From the NCBI GenBank assembly GCA_002705055.1, contig PAHY01000052.1, positions 1-64,000 on the forward strand: a DNA stretch of 64,000 bases. Direction: 5' to 3'. Positions 29,486 to 37,769 of this stretch are shown here, piece by piece. Positions within the stretch are counted from its first letter, which is position 1, and every line of letters starts with the position of its first letter. The translations under genes and the position numbers were made by a program. Origin of the DNA: Planctomycetota bacterium. GTDB lineage: Bacteria; Planctomycetota; UBA1135. Below the pieces are notes generated by a model. That model made no database searches, was not told the origin of the DNA, and was given only the letters and a program-made list of their open reading frames with translations.

Positions 29486-32400
29486 CTAGTCGGTCAGGAG
29501 GCGCTCCAGCCGAGCGCCGGGAAGGAGCAGGAACTCCTCGCCGTAGGGCTCGCCGAGCAGGAACAGCTGATAGCGGCCGGCCGGGAGGCTGCTGTGGCTC
29601 GCCTGGGCTTTCGCATCCAGCGCAAGCGAGAACCAACTGCGCGTCTCGAGATGGAGCACGTCGCAGGCGCCGAGCTCGCCCGAGCCGGCGGCATCCACGA
29701 CCGGGCCGCGCCATGCGGGCGGCATCTGGAACTGAAGCTGAGCCGGCCTCTCCAGCGCCAGCTCGCCCAGATCGAGCTCGCGCGGGCTGCCGAGAGGCAG
29801 CTCGATGTGCAGCGACTCGTGCGGCTGCGGGCCGGCGCCGCTCAGCCGCAGCCGCCACGCGCCCGGCGGCACGAAGGGGAAGCGGAAACTGCCGTCCGCG
29901 GCGATCTCGGCGGATGCCGGGCGGTCGAGCCAGCGTCGGGCATCGGTGCCCCGCTCTGCCACTTCCGGCAGGCGCGGCAGCAGCTCGACGCGCCGCCCGC
30001 TCTCCTCGCTCGCGAACTCCGCAGGGAGGCGACCGAGCAGCGATCCGCCGCCCGGGTTCCAGCGCAGCTCGCGCGTCTCCGCGGTGACCCGAACCCGAGT
30101 GATCCAGGCAGGCCGCTCGGCGGTGGCGGGAAGGCTGAGCCAGTAGTCCCCGGTCGGCAGCTGCTCCACCTGGCAGCGACCGTGCTCGTCCAAGCTCCAG
30201 GGCGCCTTCGTTTCGCCGTGGATCCGGCCAGCCTGGGCCGCGCTACGCACCGGTTCCAGCACGAAGTTGCTGGCTTCCGTCGCGTCGCCCAAGAGCGGGG
30301 CGACGACCTCCAGGTCCACCAGCCCGGGCACGGCGACCCGCAGCACTTCTTGCGGATCGGCGGGCAGCGTAAAGCTCTCACTGGCAGCGCGGCAGCTCGA
30401 TCCACGCGTGATCTCGGGCGCACGCACATCCAGCCGCAGCGCGCCGTGGACGGCGTTCTCGAAATGAACGTGTCCGGTAGCGTCAGTGCGGCCGCCCTGG
30501 ATGCGGCGCCCGTCTGCAGTAGAGAGCTGCACGCTTCGATCTGCGATCGGCCGCCCCCGCGTATCCACCACTTTCACCGTGCACGGGCGCGCGGGTTGGA
30601 CCAGGAGCTCGACCTGCGCGGGGCGGACGCCGTCGAGTGAAATTGGCTCCGGGGCGATGCAGACCTTGCCCGACTCCTCCATCAGTTCGAGCGACAAAGT
30701 GCAGGGCGGCAGCTGCAGCGCGGCGCGGCCTTCTGCGTCCGTCATGAACTGGAAGTAGAGCGCGCGCGTGGACCGGCCGACGCGAAACTCGGCCGTGGCA
30801 AAGGCGGTGAAGTTCGCGACGGGGCGCGCTTCCTGGTCCTGAACCAGGAGCTCCACGAGGGAGCCGGTCTCCAGGTCGATCTGCAAGGGTCGCCCCAGCT
30901 GGCCGAGGGCGACGGAGGGAAGAAAAGCCGTGCCCTGCTCATGCAGGACGCGCACCGCAAACTGCGTCTCGGGCTCGCAGGGCAGCGCGAACTCCGCCAC
31001 GCCGTTCTCGAGCTTTCCTCGTCTCGTCAGCGAGCCCTTCGGGTCCTCGAGGTTCCATTCGACCAGGATCGTGCCGCCTGAGACGGGCTGGCCCTGGCTG
31101 CGGACCTCAATCGTGGTCTCGAGCAGGAAGGCCTCCAGCGCGACCGTCGGCTGGCTGAGCAACTGAGACGCAGGGACCAGCTGATCGAGGTACCCCTCTG
31201 CTCGGACCACGATGAAGTCCTCGGGCCCGGTGCCGGCGTGCGCAAGCTGGGCCACGCCATCACGGCTCGAGACCGGATACAGCTCGACGCCCGGCGGAAC
31301 GGGGTAGCGACGCAGCTGTTCCCTGACTTCGCGGCCGATGACGGCGAAGGCCTCGGCGTCTCGCACCGGCTTGCCGCTCTCTGCATCGACGACATGTACC
31401 TCCAGGGTGCTGCCGGGCCGGGTCACGAGCTGATACTCGCCGGACTGCGCAGGGCCGACCTCCACCTGATCCCAGAAGGTGCTGGTTCCCGCGCCGTGGA
31501 CCCGCACCTCGTAGCGACCTGCCTTCAGGCCGAGCATCCGAAAGCGACCGTTCTCGTCGCTGACCTGATCGAAGGCGGGCCAGCTGTAGGCGTTGCTGCC
31601 CTCGGACTGAAGATGGAAGGCCACGTGGACACCGGGGGCGGCCTTCCCGCTGGGGTCGAGCACCTGGCCGGCAAGTTGGAAGCCCGGTTCGAGCTGGAGA
31701 ATCAGCTCGGATTCCTCCGTCGACGAGCTGTCCAGGAGTCCCCGGCGGGTGATCACAAACTCGGGGTCCGCCGACACCGCGGCGATGCGTTCACCGAGCG
31801 GCACCTCGATCCGAAGCAGGCCGTCCTCGTCGGTCATGCCGGCGAGATAGTCCGGGTGCGGCTTTCCATCCTCCGCGAAGTAACGCGAGTTGGGATGGGG
31901 GTTTCCGACGCTCAGCCCGATCGGGATCTCAGCAAGCGGGCGGCCCTGCTGATCTTCGGCCCGGATGCGGAGCGGGCGGCTCGCCGCCTTGGTGGCGGGC
32001 TCCGGGGCGGCGTCGAGTCGAAAACGCTGGTCCACCGGCACTTCGGGGAGCCCTCGTGCGGCGCCGCCCGCGAGACTCGCCTCGACCGCGGCAGGCGTGG
32101 GGGAGCCCGCCGCCTGCAGTCCCGCGTCCGGCAGGAAGGGGAGCGCCGCCAGGGTCAGTCCCGCAGCTGCAGCCCAGGCCACGGTGCTCGGCTTGATCAG
32201 CTGGCCCAGCTTGTCCGGGCCGGCCAGCAGGGTCGGATCGATGGTCGGCATCGGAGCCGGGATGCCCTGGATGACCGCGAGGCAGGACAGCTCCCAGCCT
32301 TTGCCATAGCGCTGCTCCCAGCGCTGGCGGCAGGACTGCAGGGCGCGCGCCAGACGCCGCTCCACCGCCTTGGTCGAGATGCCCAGGTCCTGCGCGATCT

Positions 32401-32932
32401 TCGCCTGCGGACGCTGCATGGCGTAGGCCTGCACGATGAGCGTGCTCTGCTCCTTGGGCAGCTCGTGCACGATCTCGAGCATGAACTGGATGTTCTCGGT
32501 CTGCGCCGCCGCTTCCTGCGGCGTCGGTCCGTCCGCAGATTCGGCGCGGTAGCTGGCAGGCGCCACGGTGCGCACCAGCTCCTCGCGACGCTTGCGCTGG
32601 CGTCCATCGCTCGCTGCGAGGTTGGCCATGACCCGCGCGAGCCATCCCGGCAGATTCTTTTCGTGCTCCGGCGGGCTCTCGAGCGCCCGCTGCGCGGCCT
32701 CCTGAGCCAGGTCCTCCGCCCGCTGCTCGCCGACGATCGCGGTCGCAAGCGCTTTCATCCACCCGAGATCGGTGATCAGGGCTTCCAGGCTGGGGGACGG
32801 CGGCAAAGGAGGGGGAGGCGTCACGGCAATCGGGGGACCGTGGGACAACGCGGGAAACAGTGGCTTCCCCCTCGATTCTGACGCGATCATTCGCGCCTGG
32901 AAAGAGGGGTTTTTGTCAGAAAGCAGATTCAT
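29486..32932 (-). CDS. ECF sigma factor fused to a TM segment and carboxypeptidase-regulatory-like repeats
   Basis: 1148 aa. Residues about 50-120 are sigma region 2 (GEQRAEDLAQEAAQRALESP, KNLPGWLARVMANLAASDGRQRKRRE) and about 145-205 sigma region 4 (LPKEQSTLIVQAYAMQRPQAKIAQDLGISTKAVERRLARAL). A single hydrophobic helix at about 248-267 (STVAWAAAAGLTLAALPFL) follows. The remaining 870 residues are beta-sandwich repeats (LAGQVLDPSGKAAPGVHVAFH, VKVVDTRGRPIADRSVQL and others). Predicted topology: cytoplasmic sigma factor, transmembrane helix, exported repeats, so this would be a membrane-tethered sigma factor with a built-in sensor and no separate anti-sigma gene nearby. Release may need proteolysis; that is inference. 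TAAGTA lies 6 nt before the ATG. Confidence 0.85.
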   Translation of the reverse strand: MNLLSDKNPSFQARMIASESRGKPLFPALSHGPPIAVTPPPPLPPSPSLEALITDLGWMKALATAIVGEQRAEDLAQEAAQRALESPPEHEKNLPGWLARVMANLAASDGRQRKRREELVRTVAPASYRAESADGPTPQEAAAQTENIQFMLEIVHELPKEQSTLIVQAYAMQRPQAKIAQDLGISTKAVERRLARALQSCRQRWEQRYGKGWELSCLAVIQGIPAPMPTIDPTLLAGPDKLGQLIKPSTVAWAAAAGLTLAALPFLPDAGLQAAGSPTPAAVEASLAGGAARGLPEVPVDQRFRLDAAPEPATKAASRPLRIRAEDQQGRPLAEIPIGLSVGNPHPNSRYFAEDGKPHPDYLAGMTDEDGLLRIEVPLGERIAAVSADPEFVITRRGLLDSSSTEESELILQLEPGFQLAGQVLDPSGKAAPGVHVAFHLQSEGSNAYSWPAFDQVSDENGRFRMLGLKAGRYEVRVHGAGTSTFWDQVEVGPAQSGEYQLVTRPGSTLEVHVVDAESGKPVRDAEAFAVIGREVREQLRRYPVPPGVELYPVSSRDGVAQLAHAGTGPEDFIVVRAEGYLDQLVPASQLLSQPTVALEAFLLETTIEVRSQGQPVSGGTILVEWNLEDPKGSLTRRGKLENGVAEFALPCEPETQFAVRVLHEQGTAFLPSVALGQLGRPLQIDLETGSLVELLVQDQEARPVANFTAFATAEFRVGRSTRALYFQFMTDAEGRAALQLPPCTLSLELMEESGKVCIAPEPISLDGVRPAQVELLVQPARPCTVKVVDTRGRPIADRSVQLSTADGRRIQGGRTDATGHVHFENAVHGALRLDVRAPEITRGSSCRAASESFTLPADPQEVLRVAVPGLVDLEVVAPLLGDATEASNFVLEPVRSAAQAGRIHGETKAPWSLDEHGRCQVEQLPTGDYWLSLPATAERPAWITRVRVTAETRELRWNPGGGSLLGRLPAEFASEESGRRVELLPRLPEVAERGTDARRWLDRPASAEIAADGSFRFPFVPPGAWRLRLSGAGPQPHESLHIELPLGSPRELDLGELALERPAQLQFQMPPAWRGPVVDAAGSGELGACDVLHLETRSWFSLALDAKAQASHSSLPAGRYQLFLLGEPYGEEFLLLPGARLERLLTD

Positions 32933-32985: not shown

Positions 32986-33369
32986 ATGCGAATTCAGAAC
33001 GTTGCTTTCCTCCCCCTGGTGCTGGCAACCTCCGTTTCTGCCATGCACGAGTGGGGTTGGAAGGCCCCCCAGAACGCTTCTGTGCAGCTCCTCGACACCG
33101 CCGCGATGGCGGACGATGTCCTGGTCTGCGCAATCGACATCCACTGCGGCGATCTCAACGCCGCCTTGCGCATCATCAAGAACGATGACGAGACCAAGTT
33201 GGTCTTGCTGACGCCGACCGATCGCAAGGTCCTCAAGTTCCCCAAGGGCGAATCGACGACCGCCGAGTTCACCTTTGAGTGCGACGGACAACCGATCACG
33301 CTCAGCATCTCGCCCGAGGCCGGCAAGAGCTGGGATGAGGTCGAGTCCTGCTCGGAGATTCAGTACTGA
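32986..33369 (+). CDS. Small secreted protein of unknown function
   Basis: 127 aa from ATG 32986 (MRIQNVAFLPLVLATSVSA, signal peptide); the track begins 13 codons earlier. The mature part has CAIDIHCGDLNAAL, VLLTPTDRKVLKFPKGES and FECDGQPITLSISP, with three Cys residues. No family was recognised. It is divergent from the sigma-factor fusion and coupled to the next gene (TGATG at 33367-33371). Confidence 0.65.
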   Translation: MRIQNVAFLPLVLATSVSAMHEWGWKAPQNASVQLLDTAAMADDVLVCAIDIHCGDLNAALRIIKNDDETKLVLLTPTDRKVLKFPKGESTTAEFTFECDGQPITLSISPEAGKSWDEVESCSEIQY

Positions 33370-33803
33370 TGGCACGTCCCTCTCGTCAATCGGGCGCGGC
33401 GGGCCTGCTCTGGGTCGCCGGTGCCGCTCTGGCCAGCCTCGCGCTGCTCGGTTCGGGTGCGAAGCACGCGAACGCGGCGGACAGCTGGCCGCTTGAAGAA
33501 GCTGCGGACCTCAGCGTGCTGCGCGCCGAGGCCGAGTTCGAAAGCGGTGCCCGCGTCGTGCGGGTTCAGGTGCTGCGCGGGCTGCCGGGTCAGGTCGTGG
33601 TCGAGGTCGAAGACTTCGTCGTTGGCACCGACACGCTGCTGGCTTCCGGACAGATGCTCTACACCCGGGATGCCGACTCGCGTGAGCCGCTGATGGTCCC
33701 GCTGTCGATGGACCAGCGTTTCGTGGTCGTGCAGCCCCACGCCGAGTGGGGGCGCGTGCACCGCGACACCGGCCTCGGCATCGCGATGCATCTCACCGAC
33801 TAG
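33369..33803 (+). CDS. Small exported protein of unknown function
   Basis: 144 aa. GLLWVAGAALASLALLGSGAKHANA is a signal peptide. The mature domain looks all-beta (ARVVRVQVLRGLPGQVVVEVEDFVVGTDTLL, RFVVVQPHAEWGRVHR). No family was recognised. Its ATG overlaps the TGA of the previous small secreted protein, so the pair is co-translated and may form a complex. The location next to the membrane-bound sigma factor hints at target or partner genes, but nothing proves this. Confidence 0.65.
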   Translation: MARPSRQSGAAGLLWVAGAALASLALLGSGAKHANAADSWPLEEAADLSVLRAEAEFESGARVVRVQVLRGLPGQVVVEVEDFVVGTDTLLASGQMLYTRDADSREPLMVPLSMDQRFVVVQPHAEWGRVHRDTGLGIAMHLTD

Positions 33804-33812
33804 CGCCGCGGG

Positions 33813-36800
33813 CTAGCGTCCCGCCGCCCACAGCACCCCTTCAATCAGGTGCTGTGCGTAGGCGGGATGTGTCCAGACATCCGCGCGGTGGCCGAGCGAG
33901 CTGTAGAACACGCGGCCCTTGCCCTGCTTGCGCGTCCAGGCGATCGCAAAATCACCGTCGGTGCGCTTGATGCCGCCGACGTTCATGGGGCTCGCCTTGG
34001 TATCGAGGCTGAGCAGGATGTGCTGCCGCTCGCGCGAGTAGGGATCCTTGAACTGGTAGATTTCGTCGGTGATCGTGAACTTGTCGCCGAGGTGCTCACA
34101 CGCGCGGTGGTTCGGATCCTCGACCGTGACGCCGACCGTCGCATTGGCGTTCCACGGGTGGCCGTCGAAGTAGCCGCCGATCATGTTGCCGTACCACTCC
34201 CACTCGTAGTAGGTGTCGGTCGCGCAGTGCGCTCCCGAGAAGCCGCCGCCGTTCTCGACCCAGGCCTGCAGCGCCTGCTTGCCCTCTTCGGGGATCGGCA
34301 GTTCGCCGGTGGTGTAGAAAAAGACGGCGTCGACCTTGGCCAGATTCTCGCGCGTGAACCAGGCCGGATTGCGGTCGATGATCACCTCAAAACGCGGATC
34401 CTGAGCGGCCCAGGATTCCCACTGCTTCTCGAGCAGGGACTTGCCGCTCTCATCGGCGCGCGCGACGGCGTGCTCATAGCCCGCGCTGTGCACGAAGATC
34501 ATGACGCGGGTCGGTTCGCGCTTGCTGTCGAGGTACGCGACCAGGTCACGCAGCGGGCGCGGCCCCAGCGTGTCGGCCAGGTTCGGCAGCATGGCCGAAA
34601 TCGGCAGCAGCTTGCCGTCCGCATCGTAGAACTCGAAGCCAGGCGCGATCTCGGAGGCGGGATCGACCATCGAGCGCAGCAGCTCTTCGCGCGTCCGCGC
34701 CAGGCCGATGCCTTCCAGCGCCGGACCGACTTCGGCCGGCATCTCTTCACTGCTGTCGCCGTGGACGTAGTGGCAGCGCTGACAGCTGGCGACCGGATCG
34801 TTGAAGAAGATGTCCTTGCCGCGCTGCGGGTCGCCGCCTTCCAGCGCGATGCGGTAGGGGGCCAGCTTGTCGTCGGCGTCGAAGCCGGCGCGCCAGGCCT
34901 CGAGCGCGGCGGCGAGCCCGGCCGAGCCTTCGTTCGCGCGGCGGGTCGCGGCCTCGTAGAGCTCCAGCTGAGAAGCGCCCGGCACCTCGCCGGCACCCAG
35001 TCGATTGACCCAGGCGACCAGCAGCGCATCCGCCTGCGGGTTGGCGAGATCGGCCAGGGCACCGAAGGCCGCGGCCTGTTCAGCGGCCTCGGCGCGCGGC
35101 AGGACGTCGGCCAGAATGGGCAGCGCCTCGACCGGATCCCACTTGGCCAGCAGGCGCATCGCGCGGGCGCGCAGCTTGGCGCTGTCGCTCTGGCCGGCGG
35201 CGCGGAGGCCTTCGCCCAGCTGCTCGGCGCCGAAGTCAGAGAGCGTGTTCAGAGCCGCGATGCGGACCTCTTCATTGCCGTCACCTTGGACGGTGGTCAG
35301 CAGTTCGGGGGCGATCTCGGCCATCTCGGCGGCGCGCGCAGCGCGGATCGCCGCCTGCTGCACCGCGGCGTCGGGGTGCGCCATCATCGCAGCGAAGGAC
35401 GACGCCAGCTTGGCGTGCGCCGCCTCGGCATCGCGTGCGCCGTAGACGCGCGACTCATTGCGGACGCGGTCGAACTCCTGGGGAGCGGTCCACGACGCAA
35501 TCAGATTCGCAGCCTCGCCGCGCAGGCGGTCACTCTCGGCCCCGCTAGCCAGCACGAAGCGGTCGAGCACCGCGGCGTAGCGCGCGGCGCCACCAAGGCG
35601 ATTGGCCGCGTGCATCGCGCGCCGCGCCATCGCAAAGGGCAGGCTGCGCTTCTGGCCCAGGACATCCGCGAGCGCGGGCAGCGCCGCGTCGATCGGCTTG
35701 TCGTAGATCGCGATCGCCGCCTCGGTCGCGACAAAGAGATCCTGATCCCTCAGGAAACGCGCGATCGAAGGGTGCTGCATCCGCCGCAGCGCCAGCACGG
35801 CGCCGAGGCGCACGGCCGGCGAGGCGTGGTTGCTCGCCGCCGTGAGCTGATCCAGATCGCCGATGCCACCCAGCGCCCAGCTGGCGGCGTGACGCAGGAA
35901 GCGATCGGTGTCGTTGTTCTCGGCGAGCAGGGCAAACAGCGCCGCAACCTGATCGGGGCCGCCCACCTTGCCGAGCGACTGCGCGGCGAAGTAGCGCACG
36001 CGCGCCGAAGGATCCTGCAGGGCTTCGGCCAGGGCCGGCGCGGCATCGAATCCGCTGTCGCCCACCCCGCGTGCAGCCTGGGCGCGCACTTCCGCGTCGC
36101 TGTCCTGCAGCAGCTCGGCCAGCACGCCGCCGGCGCCGAGGCGCGTCAACGCCCAGATCGCATGCACTCGCGGCAGCGTCGGCAGCGCGCGGTCGCGGGC
36201 GGCGGAGATCAGGCCCGGCACGCTGGCTTCACCGCGCGCCATCAGCTCCAGCTGCGCCTCCATGCGCACCCGCCGGTCGACGTGACCGAGCAGCTCGAGC
36301 AGCCGGTCGCCGTCCATCTGGTCGTACTCCGCCGCGAGCAGGCGGGCGTTGGCCGCCATCGCGTTGCGGTCGATGCCGCTCGGCGGATCCAGCCGGTACA
36401 TCCGGCCTTTGCCGGCGCCGTTCCAGCCTTGCACCCAGTCGCTCGCCCAGAGGGAACCGTCCGGGCCGAAGTCGACGTCGGTGGCCAGGATCTTCCACCA
36501 GAACTGCTCCTGCTCATCGACCTCGAAGCCGGCACCGTGCGGGTCGAGGGTGAAACGCCAGATGCCGCTGCCGCCGGCGCCGCCGCGGAAGTCGACCAGG
36601 AAGAACGAGTCGGCGTACTGTTCTGGCAGACCGAAGCCGGGGTAGTGCGTGAAACCCGACGGCCCCGCGCCCAGGTTCTTGATCGGTGGGTTGAGGAAGG
36701 CCGGCTGGCCGTCAAAGCGCGGCTTCCACCAGCTCTCGGACATCCACGGGCCGCGATCGTTCAGGTACTGGAAGTTCATGCTCCAGCCGCAGTCGCCGCC

Positions 36801-37724
36801 TTCCATCACGTAGACGAGGCGCGCCTGGTCGCCGGCGTCGCAGTTGTTGTCGCCGGTGAACAGATTGCCGTAGTCGTCGAAGGCCAGCTCCTGCGGGTTG
36901 CGCAGGCCGGTCGCGAACACTTCTAGGTTGGAGCCGTCCAGCTCGCAGCGGAAGACCGCGCCGCTGTTCGGGGCGGCGAGCCGCTCGCCCTCCTGATTGA
37001 CGACGTTGTAGCCGCGGTCGCCGATCGAGAAGTACAGCCGTCCATCCGGGCCCAGCACCAGGCCGTGCATATCGTGGCCGCGGAAGGCGACGCGCACCCC
37101 GTATCCGTGGTGCAGGGCCTCCCGGCGATCGGCGCGGCCGTCGTCGTTGTCATCCGTCAGCTTCCACAGCTTCGGGATGTTGGTGTACCAGGCCTCCTTG
37201 CCGCGCACGTAGACCCCGGCGCCGGTGCCATCGAGCAGATCGCCGAAGCCGGTCGCGAAGATCACGCTGCGGTCGGCCTTGCCGTCCTCGTCGAGGTCCT
37301 CGAGCAGTCGAATCCGATCGTTGCGGTCGGTCCACTCCTCGGCGTACTCGGGGTGGTACTTCAGGTACATCTCGCCGCGCTCCTCGACCGTCTGCAAGCG
37401 CAGGTCGTCCTCCAGCCAGTAGCGGTGCGAGCGGTTGTCCGGCACGCCGTCGACTTCCTGGCGGAAGGTCTCGCAGACGAACACTCGGCCGCGGTAGTCG
37501 ATGTAGAAGGCGACCGGATTGGCGAGGTCCGGCTCGGAGGCCCACAGCATGGGCCGGAAGCCTTCCGGCACCTTGAAGTTCTCAAGCTGGCGCTCGGCTT
37601 CATCCGAGCGGGGTTGGATGCCGAGCTCGGCGTCCGATTTGGGCTGCTGGGCAGCGCCCGGGGTGGCGCCGGCGCAGAAAGCGAGCAGCGCGAGGGGAAG
37701 CAGGGTCTTGGAGGGAGTCAGCAC
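33813..37724 (-). CDS. PVC-type membrane-bound dehydrogenase: beta-propeller, HEAT repeats, cytochrome c, ThuA
   Basis: 1303 aa from GTG 37724 (MLTPSKTLLPLALLAFCAG signal peptide). The ATG at 37766 used in the track lies upstream of TATCTT (37754-37749), a likely -10, so it would not be transcribed. In order: a glucose/sorbosone-dehydrogenase-like propeller (residues about 40-430, HDMHGLVLGPDGRLYFSIGDRG, LRNPQELAFDDYGNLFTGDNNCD), HEAT repeats (about 470-930), a cytochrome c motif CQRCH (about 978), and a C-terminal ThuA glutamine-amidotransferase-like domain (GGGFSGAHCATDT, SSLGHRADVW). This is the planctomycete/verrucomicrobial family tied to sugar oxidation in the periplasm; the ThuA domain is an extra fusion. 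It is upstream of nothing on its strand and may share transcription with the two genes before it. Confidence 0.9.
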   Translation of the reverse strand: MLTPSKTLLPLALLAFCAGATPGAAQQPKSDAELGIQPRSDEAERQLENFKVPEGFRPMLWASEPDLANPVAFYIDYRGRVFVCETFRQEVDGVPDNRSHRYWLEDDLRLQTVEERGEMYLKYHPEYAEEWTDRNDRIRLLEDLDEDGKADRSVIFATGFGDLLDGTGAGVYVRGKEAWYTNIPKLWKLTDDNDDGRADRREALHHGYGVRVAFRGHDMHGLVLGPDGRLYFSIGDRGYNVVNQEGERLAAPNSGAVFRCELDGSNLEVFATGLRNPQELAFDDYGNLFTGDNNCDAGDQARLVYVMEGGDCGWSMNFQYLNDRGPWMSESWWKPRFDGQPAFLNPPIKNLGAGPSGFTHYPGFGLPEQYADSFFLVDFRGGAGGSGIWRFTLDPHGAGFEVDEQEQFWWKILATDVDFGPDGSLWASDWVQGWNGAGKGRMYRLDPPSGIDRNAMAANARLLAAEYDQMDGDRLLELLGHVDRRVRMEAQLELMARGEASVPGLISAARDRALPTLPRVHAIWALTRLGAGGVLAELLQDSDAEVRAQAARGVGDSGFDAAPALAEALQDPSARVRYFAAQSLGKVGGPDQVAALFALLAENNDTDRFLRHAASWALGGIGDLDQLTAASNHASPAVRLGAVLALRRMQHPSIARFLRDQDLFVATEAAIAIYDKPIDAALPALADVLGQKRSLPFAMARRAMHAANRLGGAARYAAVLDRFVLASGAESDRLRGEAANLIASWTAPQEFDRVRNESRVYGARDAEAAHAKLASSFAAMMAHPDAAVQQAAIRAARAAEMAEIAPELLTTVQGDGNEEVRIAALNTLSDFGAEQLGEGLRAAGQSDSAKLRARAMRLLAKWDPVEALPILADVLPRAEAAEQAAAFGALADLANPQADALLVAWVNRLGAGEVPGASQLELYEAATRRANEGSAGLAAALEAWRAGFDADDKLAPYRIALEGGDPQRGKDIFFNDPVASCQRCHYVHGDSSEEMPAEVGPALEGIGLARTREELLRSMVDPASEIAPGFEFYDADGKLLPISAMLPNLADTLGPRPLRDLVAYLDSKREPTRVMIFVHSAGYEHAVARADESGKSLLEKQWESWAAQDPRFEVIIDRNPAWFTRENLAKVDAVFFYTTGELPIPEEGKQALQAWVENGGGFSGAHCATDTYYEWEWYGNMIGGYFDGHPWNANATVGVTVEDPNHRACEHLGDKFTITDEIYQFKDPYSRERQHILLSLDTKASPMNVGGIKRTDGDFAIAWTRKQGKGRVFYSSLGHRADVWTHPAYAQHLIEGVLWAAGR

Positions 37725-37748
37725 GGCGTGACGTCGCGGGGGCCCTCC

Positions 37749-37754
37749 AAGATA
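37749..37754 (-). promoter_or_regulatory. -10-like element TATCTT (minus strand)
   Basis: TATCTT reads 37754 to 37749. A start of transcription about 7 nt later would leave an 18-nt leader before GTG 37724. It argues against the ATG at 37766. Confidence 0.45.
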
Positions 37755-37769
37755 ACGGGCCTGCACGGA

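Follow-up and report, generated by a model that had tools for sequence, protein, structure and literature searches.

A planctomycete ECF sigma factor predicted to cross the membrane and to carry an exported repeat tail

P0001, encoded at 29486..32932 on the (-) strand of the window (the whole stretch of 64,000 nucleotides of planctomycete DNA that was analyzed), combines in a single polypeptide an ECF sigma factor, one hydrophobic helix and a long repeat tail. We interpret it, with a probability of roughly 0.58, as a transmembrane receptor in one polypeptide that signals through an ECF sigma factor, which is tethered and then released by regulated proteolysis. The sigma half would be cytoplasmic and held to the membrane by one helix, and the tail, in the periplasm or at the cell surface, would be the sensor. 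Tethering, or a conformation controlled by the tail, would take the place of an anti-sigma factor. A signal at the tail would cause the tail to be cut, after which an intramembrane protease of the RseP type would cut the helix; the freed sigma domain could then engage RNA polymerase and transcribe a small regulon, probably including a divergent pair of small genes (A and B, below) and perhaps its own gene.

Because the G+C-rich window has many long antisense ORFs, frame length is weak evidence for a gene here, and it is same-frame homology to other proteins that settles the coding strand of 29486-32932. Counted from the first ATG the product has 1148 amino acids. We doubt the start at 32932: a divergent ORF would then lie only 14 bp away, and the product would have some 40 N-terminal residues that are absent from relatives, whose N-termini align from about codon 37; the true start is probably Met15 (32890) or the GTG at codon 37 (32824). 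As a sequence-only reading of this DNA had proposed, the protein has sigma regions 2 (residues 57-115; 32588..32764, (-)) and 4 (residues 152-201; 32330..32479, (-)). Region 3 is missing, and this ECF layout is found alike with Pfam, NCBIfam and AlphaFold. The Pfam match to Sigma70_r4_2 has E=4.4e-8, and the score against the NCBIfam sigma70-ECF model TIGR02937 is above its cut-off. In an AlphaFold model of residues 38-335, built with 59 sequences, regions 2 and 4 are confidently placed (pLDDT mostly >90 in region 2), and the PDB entries that best match the fold of the sigma model are complexes of RNA polymerase with an ECF sigma factor. By these sequence and model criteria P0001 is an ECF sigma factor with intact regions 2 and 4.

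The hydrophobic helix, which the sequence-only reading had put at about residues 248-267, lies at residues 249-267 (STVAWAAAAGLTLAALPFL; 32132..32188, (-)) and starts 39 residues beyond the sigma domain. Its predicted insertion dG is 0.83, compared with 3.8 for the best segment of the tail; the values come from an approximate re-implementation of a Hessa-type position-dependent scale, which gave -1.65 for a glycophorin A control and +3.8 for a tail control. This helix is Ala/Gly-rich and weaker than that of most relatives. A hydrophobic segment was present in 89/89 distinct long-tailed relatives (own-genome paralogues, other relatives and proteins from public contigs; median dG -0.57, maximum 1.08), which had been picked by sigma profile and tail length, independently of the helix. 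It was also present in 76/76 members from Saltatorellus ferox Poly30. The best tail segment in the 89 relatives was never below dG 1.27, and across the 89 and the 76 together no tail segment fell below 1.2. When the sets were pooled, the helix occupied the same place in 163/163 distinct members, never lay in the tail, and had dG<0 in 130, which supports the proposal of a sigma factor that is itself membrane-spanning. It follows region 4 by 13-60 residues in these 163 members (median 35). Short ECF proteins from the same searches mostly stop no more than about 40 residues past region 4 and have no hydrophobic segment. Net charge over the 15-residue flanks of the helix is +0.73 toward the sigma domain and -1.33 toward the tail (163 members); in 130 members the bias has the sigma-side-positive sense and in 9 the reverse (p ~3e-22, a value that overstates independence because the members are related). 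Given this bias, the topology that the sequences support is one membrane-spanning helix between a cytoplasmic sigma domain and an external tail.

Between the sigma domain and the helix is a juxtamembrane linker (residues 211-248; 32189..32302, (-)), defined from alignments and without a zf-HC2 match. Many members have the motif [YF]G..W...C in this linker, just past sigma region 4 (columns 198-215 of alignment A2).

The tail proper (residues 268-1148; 29489..32131, (-)) comprises about 880 residues of predicted beta-sandwich repeats. Its description as a run of carboxypeptidase-regulatory-like repeats stood for part of its length: Pfam finds CarboxypepD_reg in three stretches (total E=2.2e-30), the best at residues 420-497 (31442..31675, (-)), with Big_1 (Ig-like) matches further along (1.4e-10), and the remainder is Ig-like or matches no family. 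A search by sequence found no solved structures related to the tail, and a model of the whole tail made from the single sequence had a pLDDT of 36. That the repeats are exported, as had been proposed, is supported by the flank charges and, independently, by sigma-less sister proteins that bear the same tails behind a short N-terminus and a membrane anchor. Tails of the two kinds of protein are homologous with E values down to 1e-46, and that of P0001 matches the sigma-less anchored protein L026 with E=3.4e-16. Several sigma-less sister genes adjoin sigma-helix genes. Contig C12 of the same genome (G000; L001:1713-13312 and L002:1544-9519) has a cluster in which four sigma-helix paralogues are accompanied by a sigma-less anchored protein (L002:6559-9519) with eight carboxypeptidase-regulatory domains. 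At L068:499-6106, two genes for sigma-less anchored proteins, whose tails are homologous, lie downstream of a sigma-helix gene in the same orientation; the two proteins are perhaps competitors or co-receptors. At L038:7737-15508 and L085:7986-10117 the sigma-helix part and the tail are apparently in separate ORFs, through a frameshift, an assembly error or a real split.

The search for paralogues returned the same layout in numbers. The genome that contains the window has 29 region-2 matches, of which seven have the sigma-helix-tail design, and in the cultured, completely sequenced Poly30, 76 of the 109 profile matches fall in frames of >=570 aa; carboxypeptidase-regulatory domains were found in 46/52 of the Poly30 members scanned. 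At a profile E <=1e-38, a cut-off that we set and below which weaker-scoring genomes may still have related layouts, the design was detected in 45/199 genomes sampled from the phylum, across 22 families. In a scan with a narrower alignment, the named contigs bearing long-tailed members were nearly all from Planctomycetota. Other families of the phylum have long-tailed ECF proteins in which the helix comes 52-89 residues after region 4 and the tails differ, being serpin, right-handed beta-helix/NosD, BNR or DUF2092 domains (17 proteins scanned, picked by sigma match and frame length and not for the helix). One of them, L240:261-2459 (+) in genome G103, has an ECF sigma domain at residues 22-191, a helix from residue 254 and a complete serpin at 353-729 (E=2.6e-110); a second serpin-tailed member occurs among the 17. 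From its domains, L240 is possibly a protease-sensing sigma receptor. The sigma-helix layout with beta-helix/NosD, BNR or DUF2092 outside is seen at L250:238-2859, L241:238-2586 and L251:79-2091.

How would such a sigma factor act? Judged by analogy, release by regulated proteolysis is the likeliest route. In Pseudomonas putida IutY (ECF243), as in P0001, the sigma factor is fused to a membrane-spanning part; the proteases Prc and RseP activate and release it, and a truncated form is constitutively active (PMC8999054). IutY differs in having a fused anti-sigma domain and in belonging to an iron cell-surface signaling system, and P0001 has neither. The sequence-only reading had put DNA binding at the membrane beside proteolytic release, and the same topology could indeed work without release: a membrane-bound sigma factor would recruit RNA polymerase and promoter DNA, and the tail would act on its conformation or oligomerization, in the manner of regulators like ToxR and CadC. 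Regulators of that type carry signals from outside to genes in one protein, are mostly single-pass and are common, although their output is a DNA-binding regulator domain and not, as in P0001, a sigma factor; a survey of them makes no mention of sigma factors (PMC10269533). The linker (median 35 aa) would let a tethered sigma domain reach RNA polymerase, and we found neither a cleavage site nor a dedicated protease; among 330 neighboring ORFs of sigma-helix genes no protease gene recurs. The genome has an RseP-like M50 protease gene, and as M50 proteases are near universal this adds little to the case for release. On the other side, holoenzyme formation and promoter clearance would be harder at the membrane, and IutY, a fused sigma factor whose activation has been characterized experimentally, acts via release (PMC8999054). 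On balance we consider action without release unlikely, if a serious contender.

If the sigma domain is released, which genes would it transcribe? Two small genes stand divergently next to P0001. Gene A (32986..33369, (+)), for which 32986 is the more likely start, encodes a small secreted protein with a signal peptide and conserved Cys residues, and has homologues next to the sigma gene at loci L187 and L188. Gene B (33369..33803, (+)) encodes a small membrane-anchored or secreted protein and occurs in 3/26 genomes of the taxonomic family, always at this locus. Outside the window's own genome, B has homologues in 2/25 genomes of the family, G011 and G008, which represent other genera; in each it is found, with the divergent arrangement preserved, next to the gene for one of the two proteins most closely related to P0001. 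A single-sequence search with gene A found no homologue, but the ORFs at its position in both of these loci are homologous (shuffle z 6.1 for window-G011, 22.8 for G008-G011 and 4.5 for window-G008); for gene B the z values are 17 and 10. Profiles of A and B found nothing else convincing among the loci searched, and the G011 form of B, compared with 61 genomes of the order, matched the window copy alone. Beyond A and B lies a gene for a 1317-aa fusion of DUF7133/GSDH-like, HEAT, cytochrome c and ThuA domains (33813-37766, (-)). Its orthologue is present in 19/26 genomes of the family and is flanked by A, B and the sigma gene in three only; in the 16 other genomes the flanks retrieved have no sigma gene, A or B. 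The order MocA-sigma-A-B-ThuA is maintained in related genera, with MocA also kept in G008. As the three A-B genera are mutually closest at this locus (ThuA 60-62% identical), the conserved order may in part be plain synteny among close relatives. The suggestion that the two divergent genes are targets has thus gained linkage at the level of a clade of three genera; the pair are the best candidate targets or partners of P0001, and could still be neighbors and nothing more.

We also looked for a shared promoter motif. In 160 distinct regions upstream of sigma-helix genes, dyad and hexamer enrichment was not clearly above a shuffled null. The hexamer GAATCG was enriched (36/160 regions, with 11 expected) and mostly lay no more than 80 bp from the start of the sigma match; no consensus emerged around it, and no wider motif was found in the 160 regions. 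Autoregulation is therefore unsupported. Promoters specific to each paralogue would fit the lack of a shared motif, which in itself supports nothing.

As a rule, an ECF sigma factor is partnered by a separate anti-sigma protein. P0001, just as had been noted from the sequence, has no anti-sigma gene next to it: the neighboring genes encode a Gfo/Idh/MocA oxidoreductase and the ThuA fusion protein, both metabolic, and include no receptor of the iron-signaling type. The zf-HC2 anti-sigma domain had no match in P0001 or in seven sister sigma-helix proteins, and the domain listings of 52 Poly30 members and of the 17 proteins from other families include no zinc-finger anti-sigma domain. The linker, at most 60 aa in the 163 members, leaves little room for one. 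Nor did a recurrent partner gene appear among the 330 neighboring ORFs, where no cluster exceeded six loci and the largest recurring groups were sigma-less tail proteins; that scan took ORFs of >=120 aa from crude gene calling, so that short genes like A and B could escape it. The sigma factor might instead be controlled by an unlinked anti-sigma factor, or by a soluble protein such as A or B, with the tail merely localizing it. The genome does encode at least three zf-HC2 anti-sigma-like proteins, and A and B are co-inherited with the P0001 sigma gene in the three genera. However, the zf-HC2 genes on contigs C2 and C30 lie directly behind short ECF genes of their own, neighbor families do not recur across sigma-helix genes, and each of 7 to 76 paralogues per genome would need a separate unlinked partner, all of which makes such control improbable.

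Two further explanations fare worse. The Pfam match to Sigma70_r2 is weak in P0001 (23.1 bits), as it might be if the sigma domain had decayed or were a mere anchor for a structural envelope protein; this is very improbable, given that the ECF motifs (..DLAQE.., WL..V and the helix-turn-helix of region 4) are retained across an alignment of 23 divergent sequences, that the NCBIfam ECF model is matched above cut-off, and that the sigma domain is the best conserved part among sigma-helix proteins. That the hydrophobic segment is no membrane helix and the protein wholly cytoplasmic, as the marginal dG and Ala/Gly-rich composition in P0001 might suggest, is scarcely credible in view of the helix in every pooled member, the flank charge asymmetry, the N-terminal anchors of the sigma-less sisters, the extracytoplasmic domain types (serpin, NosD) behind the same helix, and the AlphaFold model of residues 38-335, in which the helix, at low confidence, stands isolated and packs on nothing.

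A tethered sigma receptor has precedents. In ECF52 (SCO4117 of Streptomyces) a sigma factor, a transmembrane helix and an exported tail form one protein, for which proteolytic release has been proposed (PMC5826349). ECF52 is confined to Actinobacteria, has a Pro-rich/carbohydrate-binding tail and is represented in S. coelicolor by SCO4117 alone (PMC5826349); in it, as in ECF48 and ECF53, the sigma factor and the helix are separated by a zinc-finger anti-sigma domain (PMC8999054, PMC5826349). P0001 resembles these groups in its helix after the sigma domain and its exported tail, whereas its family lacks the anti-sigma domain, having a linker of about 35 aa in its place, and has beta-sandwich tails and up to 76 copies. 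In Dma3 of Bacteroides thetaiotaomicron, too, a sigma domain forms the N-terminus of a long protein that spans the envelope, the Dma family having an anti-sigma domain, a helix, a disordered tether and a C-terminal beta-barrel (PMC13088901). P0001 differs in its phylum, in lacking an anti-sigma domain and in its tail, which by sequence matches beta-sandwich families of the CarboxypepD_reg/Big_1 type only. Planctomycete ECFs with long C-terminal extensions are also known, notably ECF57, in which WD40 repeats are prevalent without being in all members, and some Tuwongella ECFs occur in detergent fractions (PMC8999054, PMC8567305). The phylum, the huge ECF expansion and the long C-terminal extensions are common to ECF57 and the present family. 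A WD40-tailed ECF57 fusion is not supported for P0001 by domain content, there being no WD40 in it or in the domain listings of 52 Poly30 members. The literature searched holds no description of a sigma factor with a helix and carboxypeptidase-regulatory or serpin tails; key work on planctomycetes and on ECF classification lay outside that search, and a prior description is possible. Sigma-membrane fusions as such are known already; with that proviso, the novelty here lies in the lack of an anti-sigma part, the kind of tail and the number of copies.

More broadly, and as a tentative proposal that we put a little short of even odds, Planctomycetota may have a class of modular one-piece sigma receptors, in which a constant sigma-helix module is joined to exchangeable domains on the outside (carboxypeptidase-regulatory repeats, serpins, beta-helices, BNR), present in tens of copies per genome and used like receptor histidine kinases, with tethering in place of an anti-sigma factor. 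The 76 members in the cultured, completely sequenced Poly30 make the design directly testable, and the serpin-tailed forms suggest a concrete stimulus, namely proteases. A family that seems free of anti-sigma factors may explain how some planctomycetes manage with very large ECF sets and no matching anti-sigma genes. If the interpretation is right, a sigma factor that passes through the membrane would be a minimal pathway from the outside to RNA polymerase, without the usual partner proteins.
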